This document shows, piece by piece, positions 18,181 through 40,365 of a stretch of 51,803 nucleotides of DNA. Under the pieces are notes generated by a model. The model had not been told where the DNA came from, did no database searches, and saw only the letters and a list, made by a program, of their open reading frames with translations. A program made the position numbers and the translations under genes. Origin of the DNA: Paludibacteraceae bacterium (GTDB lineage: Bacteria; Bacteroidota; Bacteroidia; Bacteroidales; Paludibacteraceae). How positions within the stretch are numbered: the stretch's first letter is position 1; every line of letters starts with the position of its first letter. The stretch is from assembly GCA_017628395.1 (NCBI GenBank), contig JAGBZD010000035.1, positions 1-51,803 on the forward strand, in the 5' to 3' direction.

Positions 18181-18270
18181 ACTCTAAACAATTCTAAACT
18201 ACTCTACACCACTCTAAACAATTCTACACCACTCTAAACAACTCTAAACAATTCTAAACTACTCTACCCC
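18181..18270. repeat. 10-bp tandem repeat, nine units abutting a start codon
   Basis: Nine decamers of the type ACTCTAAACA / ATTCTAAACT / ACTCTACACC follow one another without any gap from the base after the YggS stop region to the base before ATG 18271. The whole intergenic gap is thus repeat, leaving no room for a Shine-Dalgarno site or promoter of the usual form. The same family recurs at 35601-35698, 35981-36020, 36991-37050 and, in the other orientation, 29731-29750. Confidence 0.95.
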
Positions 18271-18876
18271 ATGACTATCATCCTTGATTTAGGCGGCGTG
18301 CTCATGCAGCACAATATGCCAGAATGTATGGCACGATTTCGTGCAATGTTGGGCGAAGAAGGCATGGCAGAAGTATTGGGCATGAAGTCCAATGCGGAGG
18401 GAGTGCCTAATAGTTTAATGGATCAATATGAGTGCGGCGCTGTGAGTACGGATGAGTTTGTAGGTGCTATTTTGTCGCGTGCGAAAACGGGTACTACGGC
18501 ACAGGATGTGCAAGACGCGTGGAACGCCATGCACGCAGGTATTCCTGCGGAGCGTATGTCATTGATTCAGGGTTGGAAGAATCTGGGGCATCGTTTGGTG
18601 ATGTTGAGCAACAACAACGCGTTGCATTGGGAGGACATACACCTGAAATACGATTTTTCGATGTTTGACCACATGTTTTCTTCGCATCTGGTGCATTGCA
18701 ACAAGCCCAATCGAGGTATTTATGAGGTTGTTCATCAGTATCTTATTGATAATCATTACGAACAGCCCTATCATTTTGTAGATGACTTACCTGCCAATCG
18801 CCATATGGGCGAGGCGTTTGGTTGGATTACTTACCCCACATTGGAAGCGCTTAATCATGCCATGACAGGTTTCTAA
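18271..18876 (+). CDS. HAD-superfamily hydrolase
   Basis: A 201-residue HAD subfamily IA protein of YihX type. Motif I is DLGGVL (nucleophile Asp 6, with Gly in place of the second Asp, as usual in this branch), motif II is VMLSNNN, Lys of motif III is in CNKPNRGIYE, and motif IV is FVDDLPAN. Likely a small-molecule phosphatase or dehalogenase-like enzyme; substrate unknown. Its entire upstream spacer is the decamer array. Convergent with the dehydrogenase gene at 18886. Confidence 0.9.
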   Translation: MTIILDLGGVLMQHNMPECMARFRAMLGEEGMAEVLGMKSNAEGVPNSLMDQYECGAVSTDEFVGAILSRAKTGTTAQDVQDAWNAMHAGIPAERMSLIQGWKNLGHRLVMLSNNNALHWEDIHLKYDFSMFDHMFSSHLVHCNKPNRGIYEVVHQYLIDNHYEQPYHFVDDLPANRHMGEAFGWITYPTLEALNHAMTGF

Positions 18877-18885
18877 CCGAGTCGC

Positions 18886-19713
18886 CTATTTCTGATATTT
18901 GCCAATAAGTTTCATCACCAAGAACACCAACCAATCTGGCGTGTGCTTGAGCAATGGTGTGCAGAGGTGATTGATGACACCCGGCATATCCGCTTTCTTG
19001 CCACGGAACATCTTTTTGAGGGCACGCTTCACCAGATTCTCGGGTGGAATAGCCACAGTCAAATTCACTGCCAAACGACGCAGATTTGGTGCCAAGCCAA
19101 ACAACGCCGTATCCACCGCGCCAGGAGTCATTACGGTGATATTCACGCCCTTTGGTTTGAACTCATACCAAAGCGACTTAGAGAAATTATAGATAAACGC
19201 TTTCGTTGCATTATACGATTGAATACCTGGCATCGCCATCCACGCAGACATGGATGACATGTTGAGGATATACCCTTTCTTGCGCGACTTGCCACAAAGT
19301 TTTTGTGCTTGTTCTTCTGCAGTCAGTTCGCGCTTCATCATCTCTTCGCCAAAAAGACGAGTGAGTTTGGCAACCGTAATCATATGCAGGTTGAGAATCA
19401 GTTCGATACGCTTCATCGAAGTCTCGCAATAAGGATTGAAGAAGAAAACACCCGCGTTGTTGATGAGAATATCCACCACAAGGTTGTTCTCTTGGCAATA
19501 CGCAAACAATTGCTCTGCAGCGTCTTGCTTGGAGAGGTCTGCATAGAGAGGAATCGTCTTAACGCCGTACTGCGCTGCCAAATCAGCAGCTACTTGTTTC
19601 TGTTCTTCCTCTTGATTACTCACCAACAAGAGGTCTGTATGATAATCGCGCGCCAGTTGGGTAGCATATTGAAGACCAATACCCGATGATGCGCCTGTAA
19701 CGAGTGCAAGCAT
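18886..19713 (-). CDS. Short-chain dehydrogenase/reductase, candidate hydroxysteroid dehydrogenase
   Basis: A 275-residue classical SDR: NAD(P)-binding TGASSGIG at residues 7-14, INNAG, the catalytic Ser in NMSSMSAW, and YNATK (Tyr and Lys). The end resembles the 17-beta-HSD12-like branch (KSLWYEFKPKGVNITVMTPGAVDT). An upstream TTG/GTG-type extension exists but ATG 19713 starts right before the beta1 strand and is preferred. It is the last of three minus-strand genes with the flavin reductase and the 5-alpha-reductase-like protein; a role in oxidising or reducing a steroid hydroxyl is inferred from that context only. Confidence 0.88.
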   Translation of the reverse strand: MLALVTGASSGIGLQYATQLARDYHTDLLLVSNQEEEQKQVAADLAAQYGVKTIPLYADLSKQDAAEQLFAYCQENNLVVDILINNAGVFFFNPYCETSMKRIELILNLHMITVAKLTRLFGEEMMKRELTAEEQAQKLCGKSRKKGYILNMSSMSAWMAMPGIQSYNATKAFIYNFSKSLWYEFKPKGVNITVMTPGAVDTALFGLAPNLRRLAVNLTVAIPPENLVKRALKKMFRGKKADMPGVINHLCTPLLKHTPDWLVFLVMKLIGKYQK

Positions 19714-19805
19714 AGTTTTCTTTTTATTTTGCCCACTGATAACACCGATTTTCACCAATTATCTATCTGTGTTTATCCGTGAAATCTGTGGGAGATATCC
19801 AATCC

Positions 19806-21047
19806 TTATTTCTCGGGGTACCACATTTTTTCGTACTTGAGTGCTTCTTTCTTGAGGTACTTAGGGATGTCCTTATCACACTCATGGCACTTCATATCCA
19901 ATGTGTACATACGCGCTACGCAGTAGTTAGAGCGTTTGCACTCGGAGTGATATTGCTCCTCTTTCATCTTGTTCACGAAGTCGGTATCGCGCACGAGAGC
20001 GTGTCCAATCTGCACAAAGTCAAAACCAGCAGCAAGGGCAGTCTCAGCGTTCTCGCGTCCCATGACACCACCTACATAGATAAGTGGCATCTTCAAAGCT
20101 GCGCGGAACTGCTTAGCGGTATCAAGGAAGAAGAGTTCTTTGAATGGCACAGTAGGAATCATCAAGTGACCTACGAAGCGCAATGCGAGGCGCAACCACC
20201 AGAATGACCAAGGATTCATATAGTGCGCCAAGGTCTTGATAGGCATCGCACCACCCATGACGGTGAAAGGTGCTTTGCTCACGAAGCCTGCAGTAAGAAC
20301 AAGTGCGTGAACACCATGTTTCTCTATCTCTTGTGCGATGCGGATGCACTCCTCTACTTTGAGACCCGACTTGAAGCCATCGTACATATTGGTTTTCACC
20401 ACCACCGCCATATCGTTGCCTGCGTGCTCCATAACCTCAGCCATGACCTCGTTCATAAAACGCATGCGGTTCTCCAATGAACCTCCGTACTCATCACGAC
20501 GGCGGTTGGTATATGGAGAGAGGAATTGTGAAATCAAATAACCGTGACCCGCGTGGATCTCTACGCAGTCAAAACCACACTCGCGGCAGAAGTCCACGGC
20601 ATGACCAAACGCCTTGACGATCTCCTTTATCTCCTCCCTTTTGAGTTTACGGTGAAGCGTAGGAGAATAGAGATTAAAACCTGTACTTGCACCCACTGGA
20701 AGGCATTTGCAGGTATAGAAGTGGGTCATATTGCCGCAGTGACCAAGTTGGATACTTGCTTTTGCACCCTCGGCGTGAATACCGTCGGTGAGGCGTTTCA
20801 AGTCCTCTTTGATTTCATCGTGGATATAAAGTTGACCGTCGAAAGACACACCCGAACGAGTCACAGAGCAATAGGCTACAGTAGTCATTGCAGCACCACC
20901 ACGGGCAACTGCAGTATGGTAGTTGTACAAATCTTCGCTTGGTTTGTTGCCGTACGCCATATTCTCGAAAGCAGCAGAACGGATAGCGCGGTTGCGCAGA
21001 GTAATAGGACCAAGCTTATGCTCAGTAAAAAGGAGATTGTTGTTCAT
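19806..21047 (-). CDS. Old-Yellow-Enzyme-type NADH:flavin oxidoreductase
   Basis: A 413-residue FMN TIM-barrel ene-reductase. Seen: LGPITLRNRAIRSAAFENMA, the substrate/FMN residues in SIQLGHCGNM, and the family signature IEIHAGHGYLISQFLSPY with NRRRDEYGGSLENRMRF. The FMN phosphate region is YVGGVMGRENAETALAAGFDFVQIGHALV. A C-terminal cysteine group (ECKRSNYC, then KCHEC) may bind metal or an Fe-S cluster as in 2,4-dienoyl-CoA reductase/BaiCD relatives, but the second FAD/NAD domain of those is absent. Reduces activated C=C bonds; a steroid enone is suggested by the neighbours. Confidence 0.9.
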   Translation of the reverse strand: MNNNLLFTEHKLGPITLRNRAIRSAAFENMAYGNKPSEDLYNYHTAVARGGAAMTTVAYCSVTRSGVSFDGQLYIHDEIKEDLKRLTDGIHAEGAKASIQLGHCGNMTHFYTCKCLPVGASTGFNLYSPTLHRKLKREEIKEIVKAFGHAVDFCRECGFDCVEIHAGHGYLISQFLSPYTNRRRDEYGGSLENRMRFMNEVMAEVMEHAGNDMAVVVKTNMYDGFKSGLKVEECIRIAQEIEKHGVHALVLTAGFVSKAPFTVMGGAMPIKTLAHYMNPWSFWWLRLALRFVGHLMIPTVPFKELFFLDTAKQFRAALKMPLIYVGGVMGRENAETALAAGFDFVQIGHALVRDTDFVNKMKEEQYHSECKRSNYCVARMYTLDMKCHECDKDIPKYLKKEALKYEKMWYPEK

Positions 21048-21061
21048 TGTTAATATTTTTT

Positions 21062-21196
21062 AGTTGGAGCCCGGAAGCCGGAAGCATTTCTTCTTGAAAG
21101 CCGGCAGCCAATAGCCGGTAGCATTCTTCTTGGAAGCCAGCAGCCAGTAGCCGGTAGCATTCTTCTTGGAAGCCAGCAGCCGGGAGCCGGTAGCCA
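21062..21196. repeat. Degenerate AGCCGG-rich tandem repeat between two minus-strand genes
   Basis: Units such as AGCCGGTAGCATTCTTCTTG and GAAGCCAGCAGCC recur three times with a period near 40 bases, themselves made of shorter GAAGCCGG-like pieces. It fills the spacer between the 5-alpha-reductase-like gene and the flavin reductase gene. A similar GAAGCCGGTATCCGGTAGCC array lies after asnS (40266-40365). Confidence 0.85.
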
Positions 21197-21991
21197 TTAG
21201 TATATAAACGGAATAATGCGCTTCAGTTTCTTTTCGTCGAATTCGTCTGCAAACTCTTGTTTGTATCGGTGATAGATCGAGTTCGCACGCGGAACGAGGT
21301 TGCAGCAAGAGAACCAGAAGAAGCTCAATCCAGCCCATGACCATGTGAGGATTGCAAAACCGAGCCACTCGGTAATCTCACCGAGGTAGTTGGCACTGGT
21401 CACATACTTGTACATACCTTTTTTAGGCAAATAGTGATTGGTATCACCAGGTTTGCGCAAGTGACGAATCACATGATCGGAGTGCATATTGATGACCCAA
21501 CCGCAGATGAATATCGCAATTCCAAGAATAAATCGCCAATCAGTTAGCCATGCTACAGTGTAGATATTAGGCATTACTTGTGGTGCCAAGTGAAAAAGCC
21601 AATAGCCTTGTATGTAACCATTTACAAGGTTCCATATCACAGAAAACGCCATGATACTCAATGGCATCTTGCTATTACCTTTCAAAAGAAATGGAAAGAT
21701 AAACGAGCGTTGGAAGTAGTGAAACTGGAATATCAAAAAGAAGATAAGATATGGCAGTTGAAATTTCACTTCCGATTGCGCCCAAAGGTATAGCATAACC
21801 ACGAATACAGGCATCTCCATGAGACACCAGCCCACCTTGTTATTGATAGCAGGTCCCCATTTCTCGGTACGCATCTTACCATAACCAGCGTCCACAAAGT
21901 AGAGCGACACAAACACCACCAATCCTACCAAGAAGAGGATAAAGAGAAAATCATGAAATGACTCTAAAGCTGTAGATATTTCCATAAGCAT
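21197..21991 (-). CDS. Steroid 5-alpha-reductase family membrane protein
   Basis: A 264-residue protein with six or seven membrane helices. The C-terminal third is very close to the 3-oxo-5-alpha-steroid 4-dehydrogenase domain: IRHLRKPGDTNHYLPKKGMY, then KYVTSANYLGEITEWLGFAI, and a final RIIPFIY as in the human SRD5A end. The family uses NADPH to reduce the delta-4 double bond of 3-oxo steroids, or enones of related lipids. First gene after the promoter at 22040-22071. Methyltransferase-like DUF1295 relatives are the alternative, but the LRKPGD and NYLGEIxEW motifs favour the reductase. Confidence 0.88.
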   Translation of the reverse strand: MLMEISTALESFHDFLFILFLVGLVVFVSLYFVDAGYGKMRTEKWGPAINNKVGWCLMEMPVFVVMLYLWAQSEVKFQLPYLIFFLIFQFHYFQRSFIFPFLLKGNSKMPLSIMAFSVIWNLVNGYIQGYWLFHLAPQVMPNIYTVAWLTDWRFILGIAIFICGWVINMHSDHVIRHLRKPGDTNHYLPKKGMYKYVTSANYLGEITEWLGFAILTWSWAGLSFFWFSCCNLVPRANSIYHRYKQEFADEFDEKKLKRIIPFIY

Positions 21992-22039
21992 TCATTGTTT
22001 TACGCATGCACTTTCTGTATGCACACAATATTTAGTCTG

Positions 22040-22071
22040 CAAAGGTACAACTATTTTTTGAAACCACCAAA
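22040..22071 (-). promoter_or_regulatory. Promoter of the three-gene reductase set
   Basis: Minus-strand TACCTTTG (22040-22047) with TTTG at 22068-22071 and a 20-base spacer. Leader about 40 bases. No other promoter of this form is seen between the three genes. Confidence 0.8.
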
Positions 22072-22170: not shown

Positions 22171-22202
22171 TTTGCAAGTATGCAAAAAAAGCAGTACCTT
22201 TG
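22171..22202 (+). promoter_or_regulatory. Promoter of the RelA/SpoT gene
   Basis: TTTG at 22171-22174 and TACCTTTG at 22195-22202, 20-base spacer. It is divergent from the reductase promoter, with about 100 bases between the two -33 boxes and no obvious palindrome there. Confidence 0.8.
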
Positions 22203-22244: not shown

Positions 22245-24056
22245 ATGGTAGCAAGTGATTTCACCCCAGCAGAGGAGTTATTGATTGAAAAAGAGTTTCA
22301 GGCATTGCTCTCGGATTACGCTCAGACTCGCCACCGCCAAAAAGTGGAGATTATCACGCGTGCCTATCAATTGGCATGCCAAGCCCACAATGGAGTTCGC
22401 CGTTTATCGGGCGAGCCATATATGATGCACCCGTTGTCGGTGGCACGCATTGTGGTGAGAGAGATTGGTTTGGGTAGCACCAGTATTTGCGCCGCACTGC
22501 TACACGATGTCATTGAAGACACGGATTATACAGCCGAGGATATTGAGCACCAATTTGGTCCTAAGATTGCGAGCATCGTAGTAGGTCTGACCAAGATTTC
22601 GGGCGGTGTCTTTGTGGATCAAGCGGTGAAGCAAGCCGAGAATGTGCGCAAGCTGCTGCTCACCATGTCCGATGACATCCGCGTAATGCTCATCAAGCTG
22701 GCAGACCGTCTGCACAACATGCGCACCTTAGCTGCTCAGCGACCAGAGAAGCAACGAAAGATTGCTATCGAAACGCAATACATCTATGCTCCTATGGCGC
22801 ACCGACTCGGTCTGTTCCCTATCAAAACGGAATTGGAGAATTTGAGTTTCAAATACGAGAATCCTGCGTTGTACAAGGAGATTGAAGATAAGTTGCAAGC
22901 CAACAAGGATGCCCAAATGGAGAACTTCGAGGAGTTTGCTGCTCCTATCCGCAAGCACCTCACCATGATGGGCTATGAGTTCAAACTCTATGCCCGCACC
23001 AAATCGGTCTATTCGATATACAAGAAAATGGTTACCAAAGGTATTCCTTTCGAGCAAGTATATGACCTGCTGGCTGCGCGCATTGTATTTGAGCCCAATT
23101 CACAGTTCTCGGAGAAGGACCAATGTTGGATGATTTATTCTGCCATCACAGAGATTTATCGTCCACACCCCGAGCGTATCCGCGACTGGATATCCACGCC
23201 GAAGGCCAATGGCTACGAGGCATTGCATGTAACTGTCATGGGTCAGCACGGTCAGTGGATAGAGGTGCAAATACGCACCAAGCGCATGCACGAATTAGCC
23301 GAACACGGACTGGCAGCCCACTGGCGTTATAAGACTGGCGGCGAAAGCGAAAACGAGTTGGACAAATGGCTACGCGAGATCAAAGATGTGTTAGCCAATC
23401 CTGATCCAGATGCGATAGCTTTCTTGGACACCTTTAAGCTCAACTTGTATCACCACGAGGTGTTTGTATTCACGCCACGAGGCGACATTCGCACACTGGC
23501 ACAAGGAGCTACCGTTTTGGACCTTGCCTACCAGTTGCATACCGAGTTGGGCGAACATTGCATCGGAGCGAATGTCAATCGAACCACACGCACGATAGAC
23601 TACATCCTGCAAAGTGGCGACCAAGTAGAGATATTGACATCCGACAAACAAAAACCAGAACCCGAATGGCTGAACATAGCCGTTACGGCAAAAGCGAAAG
23701 ACTGCTTGAAGAAATATTTCCGTAAGCAGGAAAACACATACCAATTAGAGAGCACTACAGCTAAACCTGTGGCATTGTATATCAAGGGCTCTGACACTTT
23801 TGGTGTGATGATGCGTATTATGAAGGTGATGAGCGAAGACTACAAGATTAACATCAGTGACCTGCATGTTACCTCCGACGGCGACCATTTTACTTGCGAA
23901 ATAGAAGCCATGCTCTTTGACATGACCATGCTCGGAAAAATGTGTATGCAACTGCGCAATATCGGCAGTGTAAACACGGTGAATGTCACCAAGATTGATA
24001 ATCGACTGCTGAATGCAGAAGACTGTTCATGCGAAGCTATAACTAAAAACGAATAA
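22245..24056 (+). CDS. RelA/SpoT-type (p)ppGpp synthetase/hydrolase, compact form
   Basis: Makes and degrades (p)ppGpp, the stringent-response alarmone. Hydrolase domain with HPLSVARIV and the HD pair at residues 87-88 (LLHDVIEDT), LADRLHNMRTL; synthetase domain with ARTKSVYSIYKKM, LLAARIVF and VQIRTKRMHELAEHGLAAHW; TGS domain VFVFTPRGDIRTLAQGATVLDLAYQLHTELG; and a final ACT-like domain. At 603 residues it is shorter than the usual 730-750: the helical and zinc-finger segment between TGS and ACT is nearly gone (only about 50 residues). Both catalytic domains look intact. Confidence 0.93.
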   Translation: MVASDFTPAEELLIEKEFQALLSDYAQTRHRQKVEIITRAYQLACQAHNGVRRLSGEPYMMHPLSVARIVVREIGLGSTSICAALLHDVIEDTDYTAEDIEHQFGPKIASIVVGLTKISGGVFVDQAVKQAENVRKLLLTMSDDIRVMLIKLADRLHNMRTLAAQRPEKQRKIAIETQYIYAPMAHRLGLFPIKTELENLSFKYENPALYKEIEDKLQANKDAQMENFEEFAAPIRKHLTMMGYEFKLYARTKSVYSIYKKMVTKGIPFEQVYDLLAARIVFEPNSQFSEKDQCWMIYSAITEIYRPHPERIRDWISTPKANGYEALHVTVMGQHGQWIEVQIRTKRMHELAEHGLAAHWRYKTGGESENELDKWLREIKDVLANPDPDAIAFLDTFKLNLYHHEVFVFTPRGDIRTLAQGATVLDLAYQLHTELGEHCIGANVNRTTRTIDYILQSGDQVEILTSDKQKPEPEWLNIAVTAKAKDCLKKYFRKQENTYQLESTTAKPVALYIKGSDTFGVMMRIMKVMSEDYKINISDLHVTSDGDHFTCEIEAMLFDMTMLGKMCMQLRNIGSVNTVNVTKIDNRLLNAEDCSCEAITKNE

Positions 24057-29646: not shown

Positions 29647-29730
29647 TAATTTTTTACAATAAACTTCAATTTTGGGAGAGCATTATTTTCGTTGCCTTTT
29701 TGTTCGATATCCTCTATGCCGTGAGAGGGG

Positions 29731-29750
29731 TTTAGAGTTGTTTAGAATTG
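29731..29750 (-). repeat. Decamer pair of the CTAAACA family
   Basis: TTTAGAGTTG TTTAGAATTG, two decamers that are the reverse complement of the array family seen at 18181-18270. It lies just after the stop of the following minus-strand gene. Confidence 0.7.
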
Positions 29751-35489: not shown

Positions 35490-36893
35490 ATGACCAAACA
35501 AGAAGCAGCCATCAAGTACATCACCGAGAACTACCTCGACTACAACCGCCTCAGGCATGACATCATCAGCGATAAGCTCCAAGTGCGCGATGAGCATAGT
35601 TTAGAATCGTTTAGAATGGTTCAGAATAGTGTAGAATTGTCTTCCGCAGAAAACACAACGCTACACCACTCTACACAACCGCTACACCACTCTACACCAT
35701 GCTTTTGGCGCGAGATGAGCAAACACGACATCAACTCCATCGTGTGTCATGCAGCGCAGGAGTATGACCAAAACATCACCTCACGCGAGGTGCTCACGGC
35801 ATTGCAATCCGACCTCATACCCGATGTGCACCCGCTGAGGGAGTACATCCAATCTCTAAAACCCTACACGAACGAGCAGCCAGATTGGATTGATTGGGTC
35901 GCCTCGCAAGTGAGAGTAAAAAATAACGACAATACCGACAACTTGCGCGGCAATCAACTCCCTGCCGCGCCTGAGGAAAACAATTCTACACCATCCTGCA
36001 CAACGCTACACAACACTACACCAAGTACCGACGCGCTATGGCGCATCTGCTTCAAGAAATGGTTTGTAGCGATGGTGGCGAGTTGGATGAACGATGAGGT
36101 GGTCAATCACCAAGTCCTCGTGCTTATCGGCAGACAAGGTATCTACAAGACCACATGGCTCGAACACCTTATCCCGCCACACCTGCGCGCCTACGCCTGC
36201 AAACTCGCTAACTCAGCCGAGCTCAACAAAGATGACCGTCTCCGCATTGCCGAGTTCGGGCTAATCTCCCTTGATGAGATTGACTCGATGAACACCCGCG
36301 AACTGAATCAGCTGAAGTCCGTCATCACCGCTACAGATGTGAATGAGCGTGCCGCATACGGCTACACCAAAGAACGCCGCATACGCTTGGCATCCTTTTG
36401 CGCCAGCGGTAACCGCCGCGACTTCCTCACCGACATTACGGGCAATAGGCGTTGGTTGCCGTTTGAGGTGGAGAGCATCCAAAACCCGTTCTTCACCACA
36501 TTGCCCTACGAGCGTATGTACGCACAAGCATGGGCGTTGGCGAATGACCCCACTTTCTGCTATTGGTTTGAGTTGGATGAGATAGAGGTGCTGGAGGAGC
36601 ATAATAAGCATTTTAGGGACGAGAGCAACGAGGAGCAACTATTACCAATCCTCTTTGATGTGCCAGCCGAAGGCAAAGGCGAGTTTATGACCACGGCACA
36701 GATCAGCGAGCGGTTGGTGACCTACGGCAATATCAAGAAACCGATGGCACTCAGCCGACTGGGGATGGTACTTGGAACAGTTGGATACAAAGCCATTTCA
36801 CCAAGAATAAATGGTACGAGAACGCGCGGATGGATTGTATATCAGCGAAATAGAGATGAAATAGAAACCATGAAACGCCTATTGAAAGAGTGA
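35490..36893 (+). CDS. VapE/VirE-type (virulence-associated E) helicase/primase-associated protein
   Basis: A superfamily 3-like helicase domain is clear: Walker A VLIGRQGIYKTT, Walker B LISLDEIDSM, and the family hallmark TGNRRWLPFEV with an Arg finger. Such proteins replicate satellite phages and plasmids and occur in Bacteroidales accessory cassettes next to DUF4248, as here. No separate primase catalytic motif is seen in the N-terminal third. Two low-complexity stretches (TTLHHSTQPLHHSTP and NNSTPSCTTLHNTTP) are encoded by decamer arrays. ATG 35490 preferred over ATG 35472 because of the promoter. Confidence 0.85.
   Translation: MTKQEAAIKYITENYLDYNRLRHDIISDKLQVRDEHSLESFRMVQNSVELSSAENTTLHHSTQPLHHSTPCFWREMSKHDINSIVCHAAQEYDQNITSREVLTALQSDLIPDVHPLREYIQSLKPYTNEQPDWIDWVASQVRVKNNDNTDNLRGNQLPAAPEENNSTPSCTTLHNTTPSTDALWRICFKKWFVAMVASWMNDEVVNHQVLVLIGRQGIYKTTWLEHLIPPHLRAYACKLANSAELNKDDRLRIAEFGLISLDEIDSMNTRELNQLKSVITATDVNERAAYGYTKERRIRLASFCASGNRRDFLTDITGNRRWLPFEVESIQNPFFTTLPYERMYAQAWALANDPTFCYWFELDEIEVLEEHNKHFRDESNEEQLLPILFDVPAEGKGEFMTTAQISERLVTYGNIKKPMALSRLGMVLGTVGYKAISPRINGTRTRGWIVYQRNRDEIETMKRLLKE
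35601..35640 (-). repeat. Decamer array inside the VapE-type gene (reverse orientation)
   Basis: Four units of TTAGAATCGT, TTAGAATGGT, TCAGAATAGT and GTAGAATTGT, reverse complement of the ACTCTAAACA family. Translated as part of ESFRMVQNSVEL. Confidence 0.85.
35656..35698 (+). repeat. Decamer array inside the VapE-type gene (forward orientation)
   Basis: CGCTACACCA, CTCTACACAA, CCGCTACACCA, CTCTACACCA in succession (one unit is 11 bases). With the preceding reverse-orientation array it can form an imperfect stem. Encodes TTLHHSTQPLHHSTP. Confidence 0.85.
35981..36020 (+). repeat. Third decamer array inside the VapE-type gene
   Basis: CAATTCTACA, CCATCCTGCA, CAACGCTACA, CAACACTACA. Encodes NNSTPSCTTLHNTTP between the N-terminal region and the helicase domain. 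Confidence 0.85.
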
Positions 36894-36990: not shown

Positions 36991-37050
36991 ACAACTCTAA
37001 ACAATTCTACACAACTCTACACAATTCTACACAACTCTAAACAACTCTAC
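36991..37050 (+). repeat. 10-bp tandem repeat, six units, abutting a start codon
   Basis: ACAACTCTAA, ACAATTCTAC, ACAACTCTAC, ACAATTCTAC, ACAACTCTAA, ACAACTCTAC, then ACA and ATG 37054. As at 18181-18270, the array forms the leader of the next gene. Confidence 0.95.
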
Positions 37051-37053
37051 ACA

Positions 37054-38288: not shown

Positions 38289-38618
38289 ATGCAAAAGATA
38301 ATCTGTATATTATTTTCGATATTGCTGGGCATGAGTATCGAGGCCAGTGAAGGTGGAGTATTCTACATTTGCTATGGTACTGGACATGAAACGGCATATA
38401 TCATCCGGGGCGATAGGATTTGCTACGGTACTGGAAACGAAACGGCGTATATCCTCCGGGGCGATAGGATTTGCTACGGTACTGGACACGAAACGGCATA
38501 TATAATTCGAGGCGATAGGATTTGCTACGGTACGGGGCATGAAACGGCATATATCATCCGAGGCGATAGGATTTGCAAAGGTACGGGGCATGAAACAGCA
38601 TATATCATTCGCAAATAA
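38289..38618 (+). CDS. Small secreted protein of five 17-residue repeats
   Basis: A 109-residue protein: signal peptide MQKIICILFSILLGMSIEAS, a short linker, then five copies of ICYGTGHETAYIIRGDR, the last ending at IIRK. The DNA repeats (51 bp) differ mainly at third codon positions, for example the Arg codons CGG, CGA and CGC, while the protein stays the same, so it is under selection as a protein. No family recognised. The single Cys per repeat and alternating charged/hydrophobic pattern would suit a stacked beta structure. ATG 38289 is preferred to 38253 because it starts the signal peptide. Confidence 0.7.
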   Translation: MQKIICILFSILLGMSIEASEGGVFYICYGTGHETAYIIRGDRICYGTGNETAYILRGDRICYGTGHETAYIIRGDRICYGTGHETAYIIRGDRICKGTGHETAYIIRK

Positions 38619-40265: not shown

Positions 40266-40365
40266 GCAGCGGATATTTGGTTTCCAGAAGCTGGTAGCTG
40301 GTATCCGGAAGCCAATATTTGGTAACTGGTACCCTGAAGCCGGTATCCGGTAGCCAACAAAGGCA
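40266..40365. repeat. GGTATCCGGAAGCC-type degenerate tandem repeat
   Basis: Pieces such as GAAGCTGGTAGCTGGTATCC, GGAAGCCAATATTTGGTAAC and GAAGCCGGTATCCGGTAGCC follow each other, similar to the array at 21062-21196. It fills most of the spacer between asnS and the receptor gene. Confidence 0.75.

Follow-up and report, generated by a model that had tools for sequence, protein, structure and literature searches.

The window analysed here, a stretch of 51,803 nucleotides (nt) from a Paludibacteraceae bacterium (GenBank assembly GCA_017628395.1, contig JAGBZD010000035.1, positions 1 to 51,803), carries on its minus strand, in this order, genes for a steroid 5-alpha-reductase (SRD5A)-type membrane protein (AR), an old-yellow-enzyme-type ene-reductase (OYE) and a short-chain dehydrogenase/reductase (SDR). 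The operon is real and conserved; AR and OYE form a conserved Bacteroidales module with linkage far beyond chance, and the activities, together with a gene cluster for them, are already published for gut Bacteroidetes. Judged from sequence, the three products probably act as redox enzymes on ring A of 3-oxo-delta-4 steroids. Bile acids are a tentative choice among several candidates for the main physiological substrate, a general role on 3-oxo-delta-4 steroids or sterols being about as likely. A short follow-up is warranted on three points: the variation in the third gene, the truncation of OYE and the presence of the module in ruminant-stomach bacteria. All three open reading frames (ORFs) of the first-pass annotation were found in the order it gave, and the features of the operon are as follows, lengths being in amino acids (aa):

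21197-21991, minus strand: AR, an SRD5A-type membrane 3-oxo-steroid 4-ene 5-alpha-reductase homologue of 264 aa (Pfam, solved-structure matches, kept residues)
19806-21047, minus strand: OYE, a one-domain old-yellow-enzyme-type ene-reductase of 413 aa with four invariant cysteines (Pfam, conserved rows, AlphaFold model)
18886-19713, minus strand: SDR, a classical short-chain dehydrogenase/reductase of cluster type A, 275 aa from ATG (Pfam, motifs)
22040-22071, minus strand: Bacteroidota-type promoter TTTG-N20-TACCTTTG, 49 nt ahead of the AR start (consensus match)

Linkage of the first two genes was followed in AR loci from three sources, namely 48 neighbourhoods at 118-156 bits, 9 same-genus loci and 80 loci from a scan with AR as query (the best 80 of 586 matches), giving 131 after six duplicates were dropped, of which the 128 with at least 600 nt downstream were counted. 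An OYE gene followed AR on the same strand, no more than 400 nt away, in 105 of these 128 loci, with a median of 32 nt between alignment ends (37/48, 8/8 and 60/72 when split by source). The same AR-OYE order was seen in Parabacteroides, Bacteroides, Phocaeicola, Odoribacter, Coprobacter and Alistipes loci. Twelve AR matches at 160-171 bits, falling between the 48 neighbourhoods taken and 30 higher-scoring loci, were left out; these 30 loci (L002-L031) make up a separate AR clade, in which OYE was found in 0/30 within the roughly 1.5 kb available downstream (shorter in four loci). At the level of the order, PF02544 matches occurred in 163 of 393 sampled genomes, weak ones counted, and AR matches above 100 bits in 3 of 246 other genomes of the phylum, none of the three belonging to the order. 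Two loci carried interrupted frames: a Bacteroides fragilis S82 locus with OYE matches in two pieces and different frames (L097, 6801-7995), and a same-genus AR with an in-frame TGA (G488:C27:32013-32780). These are possibly broken genes or sequence errors.

Within the genus of the window, OYE was present in 59 of 61 genomes, including 26/26 of the good ones. The listing for AR holds 34 same-genus genomes that carry it, counting that of the window, and one that lacks it; 84 genomes without a match stand outside the listing. The two genes were adjacent, with gaps of 1-118 nt, in 13/13 other same-genus genomes appearing in both lists. The kin of the window come from the ruminant gut, as shown for one same-genus stretch (L217) that was letter-identical to a Paludibacteraceae metagenome-assembled genome (MAG) contig from roe-deer omasum (L167), and for two other same-genus loci, which have a run of 600 bases in common with MAG contigs, L162 from a reindeer and L166 from SRR11784282. 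In the loci titled as reticulum, omasum or abomasum (L127, L144, L157, L165 and L167), AR, OYE and a type A SDR were consecutive in 5/5, so that the module is present in bacteria from sites upstream of the bile duct. A gene pair linked to bile acids in the human gut is thereby extended to a large genus with ruminant-gut members, nearly every sampled genome of which carries OYE, and to bacteria of the reticulum, omasum and abomasum. With carriage in ruminant-stomach bacteria, the ancestral substrate of the module becomes a directly testable question. An AR-OYE pair in a metagenome calls for an assay before it is taken to be a set of bile-acid or androgen genes.

The assignment of AR as an SRD5A-like membrane protein held up in profile and structure-based searches. 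AR scored 141.9 bits against Pfam Steroid_dh (PF02544; cut-off 22.6) and, in a search of solved structures (E up to 0.001), matched the bacterial PbSRD5A (7c83) at 193 bits and human SRD5A2 (7bw1) at 154 bits over nearly its whole length, with a weak match to an enoyl-CoA reductase (22of) at 39 bits. Both motifs reported earlier are present, LRKPGD at residues 178-183 and NYLGEIxEW, here NYLGEITEW, at 201-209. Residues E59 and Y92 align to the catalytic E57 and Y91 of SRD5A2 (for their role, PMC7815742 and PMC7591894), and the catalytic Glu and Tyr occur in 87/87 AR rows (86 of them different, the window included, 30 rows being those of the separate clade). From the SRD5A2 NADPH-contact list in PMC7815742 (N160, D164, R171, N193, E197, R227, H231 and Y235), AR keeps seven of eight positions, as N168, D172, R179, N201, E205, R235 and Y243.

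OYE scored 191.1 bits against Pfam Oxidored_FMN (PF00724; cut-off 27), and its AlphaFold model (pLDDT 90) gave structural matches that confirm the OYE fold. The alignment comprised 100 rows, made up of the window and 99 of the 112 loci with an OYE match, the other 13 being dropped as incomplete or for a stop in the extended frame. The catalytic H165, H168 and Y170 were invariant in 100/100 rows. The extra C-terminal cysteines noted earlier were confirmed as C370, C376, C387 and C390, of which the first three, along with C104, were likewise invariant in 100/100 rows. The proposal that OYE is of the BaiCD type was not borne out: it reached 196.9 bits against the BaiCD equivalog model NF041087, far below the cut-off of 825, and the better of the two aligned stretches spanned profile positions 3-256 of 642. 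With the class of BaiCD, FadH, 2-naphthoyl-CoA reductase (NCR) and trimethylamine dehydrogenase (TMADH), whose members carry iron-sulfur centers, OYE shares the FMN barrel, the His/His/Tyr residues and a C-terminal cysteine segment. The structures of NCR, TMADH, histamine dehydrogenase and FadH align to the OYE model up to residue 408-413, whereas the one-domain OYE structures shown align only to residue 365-390, and the match to FadH stops at residue 425 of its 671. Chains of the BaiCD/FadH/NCR/TMADH class are 660-729 residues long and, unlike them, OYE has no FAD/NAD(P)H domain; it also differs by its invariant C104 and by the spacing C370-x5-C376-x10-C387, which does not fit the 4Fe-4S motif of BaiCD-class enzymes, C-x2-C-x3-C-x11-C. 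The cysteine site may exchange electrons with an outside carrier, as part of a reading that we consider improbable when taken whole.

Within the genus, the AR and OYE trees were in conflict. The OYE lineage of the window (9 rows) stood apart from other same-genus OYEs, whereas the ARs grouped together (loci L207-L226, L056, L067 and others). Approximately unbiased (AU) tests gave p values of 0.0003 and 0.001 for groups picked after the trees were seen. The middle gene may have been exchanged, or rates may be uneven; exchange of OYE is kept as a side point because of these post hoc groups and a long stem in one OYE lineage.

The SDR scored 122.6 bits against Pfam adh_short and carries the features of a classical SDR, as previously annotated: TGASSGIG at position 6, NNAG at position 85 and the triad Ser154-Tyr167-Lys171, which was invariant in 74/74 rows (window included, 3 of 76 loci being dropped). 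The likely start is the ATG at 19713; the listed 290-aa ORF opens at a TTG at 19758, which is less likely. No NCBIfam model lay above its cut-off among the 25 of 207 matches listed, so that no specific family is assignable; the top lead, mycolate reductase, was far below (113.9 of 380 bits), and a profile search of solved structures led to generic SDRs. A paralogue at 46% is found elsewhere in the genome of the window.

Two SDR types occur at the third position, type A (TGASSGIG, as in the window) and type B (TGADGGMG). Among 87 loci in which the sequence runs for 2,000 nt or more beyond OYE, 40 had type A, 22 type A followed by type B, 17 type B only, two a pair of type A genes and six neither, the last meaning none over 100 bits within 2.5 kb. 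The B-only loci include Parabacteroides massiliensis, Bacteroides oleiciplenus, a Bacteroides fragilis strain, Phocaeicola massiliensis and a Coprobacter MAG; those with A then B include an Odoribacter MAG, Coprobacter secundus, Heminiphilus faecis and two Bacteroides-titled MAGs (L107 and L159); and those with A only include Alistipes senegalensis and five Paludibacteraceae-titled loci, the sixth (L114) having neither type. A type B query against the genome of the window, which is 81% complete, found none (best match 28.8 bits). The third-gene type thus varies, and 3-beta-hydroxysteroid dehydrogenase (3-beta-HSDH) activity is therefore not transferable by position; for the SDR of the window that name is not established. 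The two types matter wherever 3-beta-HSDH is assigned from gene position. The tandem type A pairs stood behind OYE in L056 (3989-5597) and L129 (8163-9724).

Sato et al. 2021 is reportedly among the primary 2021 papers on the gut Bacteroidetes system. In that system 5-alpha-reductase, 5-beta-reductase (5BR) and 3-beta-HSDH are reported to yield isoallo bile acids (PMC12697870, PMC11271093, PMC9645264), with a 5BR/5AR/3-beta-HSDH cluster described in PMC12697870 and the 5-alpha-reductases (5AR) termed membrane-associated in PMC9645264. A review assigns 5-alpha-reductase to Parabacteroides merdae, Odoribacter laneus, Bacteroides dorei and Alistipes (PMC12789469), and microbial 5-alpha-reductase genes have been associated with the circulating dihydrotestosterone/testosterone (DHT/T) ratio in women (PMC12589954). 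Likeness to the published cluster was judged here on relatives from the same genera as the assayed P. merdae, B. dorei and Odoribacter proteins: P. merdae and B. dorei were not among the best 80 of 586 AR-scan matches, and Parabacteroides massiliensis, Bacteroides oleiciplenus, Phocaeicola massiliensis and an Odoribacter MAG were. The window resembles that cluster in an SRD5A-type AR directly followed by OYE and then by an SDR. It differs in the third gene, which is of type B in Parabacteroides massiliensis, Phocaeicola massiliensis and most Bacteroides-titled loci and of type A in the window, and the Odoribacter MAG and Coprobacter secundus have both types where the window has A only. Its kin also differ, being ruminant-gut Paludibacteraceae, unlike the published human-gut system. 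The earlier claim that the operon holds exactly the three activities used by gut Bacteroidota was thus upheld for the AR-OYE pair, which keeps its order in Parabacteroides, Bacteroides, Phocaeicola, Odoribacter and Alistipes, and not for the third gene, which is type A and not type B.

The combination of a reductase of SRD5A1/2 type with an OYE and a hydroxy/keto SDR points to ring A of 3-oxo-delta-4 steroids, and this reading is held because the published papers on gut Bacteroidetes name the same activities and a cluster for them. Using NADPH, the SRD5A-type membrane enzyme would reduce the delta-4 ketone, giving the flat 5-alpha ketone; OYE would convert the delta-4 ketone and the bent 5-beta ketone into each other, and the SDR would do so with the 3-alcohol and the 3-ketone. 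Were all three to run reductively, 5-alpha and 5-beta dihydro-steroids would be made; were OYE to run towards the delta-4 ketone with AR and SDR reductive, 5-beta steroids would be turned into 5-alpha steroids, comparable to the published isoallo bile acids.

Several observations weigh against this steroid reading. In AR, the eighth NADPH contact is not kept, H231 of SRD5A2 corresponding to I239 in an ungapped reading, and Q56 of the Q-E-Y motif is replaced by Met58; in these two respects AR is unlike both PbSRD5A and human SRD5A2. Q56-E57-Y91 is a signature motif, and Q56A and Q56L abolish the activity of human SRD5A2 (PMC7815742). The Met is found in 87/87 rows, is invariant in a 19-row alignment holding Parabacteroides, Bacteroides, Phocaeicola and Alistipes rows and, by eye, also occurs at the Gln position in two of three homologues outside the order (those two being the ones inspected). 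With M-E-Y in every row the change is therefore old and shared and does not single out the AR of the window, and the idea that Met-for-Gln marks this enzyme out as dead or altered was dismissed. OYE, at 413 aa, is without a second FAD/NAD(P)H-binding domain, and the third gene is unlike the type B of Parabacteroides, Phocaeicola and most Bacteroides-titled loci. The linkage is also incomplete: OYE was further off in 5/128 AR loci, and 18/128 had no OYE downstream in the available sequence, the loci without OYE including three Bacteroides-titled MAGs (L103, L150 and L164), one Tannerellaceae-titled, two Porphyromonadaceae-titled and one Rikenellaceae-titled MAG. Finally, the near-universal presence of OYE in the genus would fit an endogenous lipid as well.

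Among more specific roles, conversion of 3-oxo-5-beta bile acids, through the delta-4 ketone, into allo and iso-allo forms may be the main natural job of the module, the activities and a cluster being published for gut Bacteroidetes. The genome of the window also holds, on another contig, a secreted-looking gene of the choloylglycine hydrolase/penicillin V acylase family (G000:C8; L170, 1417-2496; 359 aa), with an open frame, an apparent signal peptide and, by reading of its sequence, a mature N-terminal Cys. Its product, however, lies below both NCBI cut-offs, with 206 of 600 bits for penicillin V amidase and 200 of 350 for bile salt hydrolase. PF02275 matches occur in 19/61 genomes of the genus, 7 of them full-length above 200 bits and the other 12 below 50 bits, so that a full-length gene is found in 7/61 genomes as against 59/61 for OYE. 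The full-length carriers are mostly close kin of the window, five of the six others having an OYE at least 85% identical to that of the window, and G618, with an OYE 94% identical, is yet without such a gene. Carriage in 5/5 of the ruminant-stomach loci, upstream of the bile duct, and the near-universal presence in the genus weaken a role confined to bile acids, to which the third gene, not being that of Parabacteroides and most Bacteroides-titled loci, adds a further discrepancy; bile acids as substrate, put forward in the first-pass annotation, are thus not indicated. It is somewhat less likely that the module turns 4-sten-3-ones derived from phytosterols or cholesterol into 5-alpha/5-beta stanones and stanols in herbivore guts. 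Stanones are described as intermediates in a sterol-to-stanol route (PMC6366745). That route would need all three activities of the module, and the ruminant origin of the kin, with L217 identical to a roe-deer omasum contig, suggests that such a role fits their hosts; other steroids of the gut lumen would fit equally.

Away from steroids, the main analogy would be SRD5A3 with DHRSX, for which a three-step route in dolichol synthesis is on record (PMC11607601, PMC13229312). By this analogy the SRD5A-type protein and the SDR would saturate an enal or enone in an endogenous lipid, which we regard as unlikely. The presence of OYE in nearly all genomes of the genus is compatible with it, as is the mycolate reductase lead for the SDR, far under its cut-off as it is, but AR is far nearer to SRD5A1/2-type chains than to enoyl-CoA reductase and a linked OYE would be superfluous to that route. 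That the three genes are chance neighbours with no joint role is highly improbable: the SDR type does differ among lineages and neither type follows in 6/87 loci, but AR and OYE are linked in 105/128 loci at a median of 32 nt and a single promoter precedes the operon of the window.

For that promoter, matches to the Bacteroidota consensus TTTG-N20-TACCTTTG numbered 11 in the window, compared with a mean of 0.80 expected from 100 shuffles. The one promoter claimed earlier was found as the exact site ahead of AR, at the end of the interval given in that annotation, with no internal match on the minus strand over 18886-21991 in a scan of the window. A single exact promoter with none inside the operon makes one transcript likely, and AR, OYE and SDR would then form one transcription unit, so that the co-transcription part of the claim is a likely one. 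A sigma-70-type promoter scan gave no more sites than shuffles and was replaced by the Bacteroidota consensus. A second site (22171-22202, plus strand) points at the RelA/SpoT-type gene of the divergent flank. The neighbouring features are:

22245-24056, plus strand: RelA/SpoT-type gene, divergent flank
18271-18876, plus strand: HAD-type gene, convergent flank
21076-21194, strand not applicable: 36-bp tandem repeat, 3.3 copies with 91% match, in the AR-OYE gap

The 36-bp repeat occupies most of the AR-OYE gap. It is probably not part of the system. As a dispersed element it was unsupported, a genome search giving one more match of 28 bases. A 28-bp array at 40293-40352 resembles it by eye, and the genome search did not match that array. 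Two further repeats were observed in the window. A 10-bp-phased ACTCTAAACA-like repeat occurs at four places (18181-18266, 29729-29748, 35598-35617 and 36994-37053), a 20-mer with at most 3 mismatches giving 11 matches versus 0 in 100 shuffles. A 51-bp tandem repeat at 38367-38608 has 4.7 copies with 90% match and, its unit being a multiple of three (17 codons), is possibly coding.

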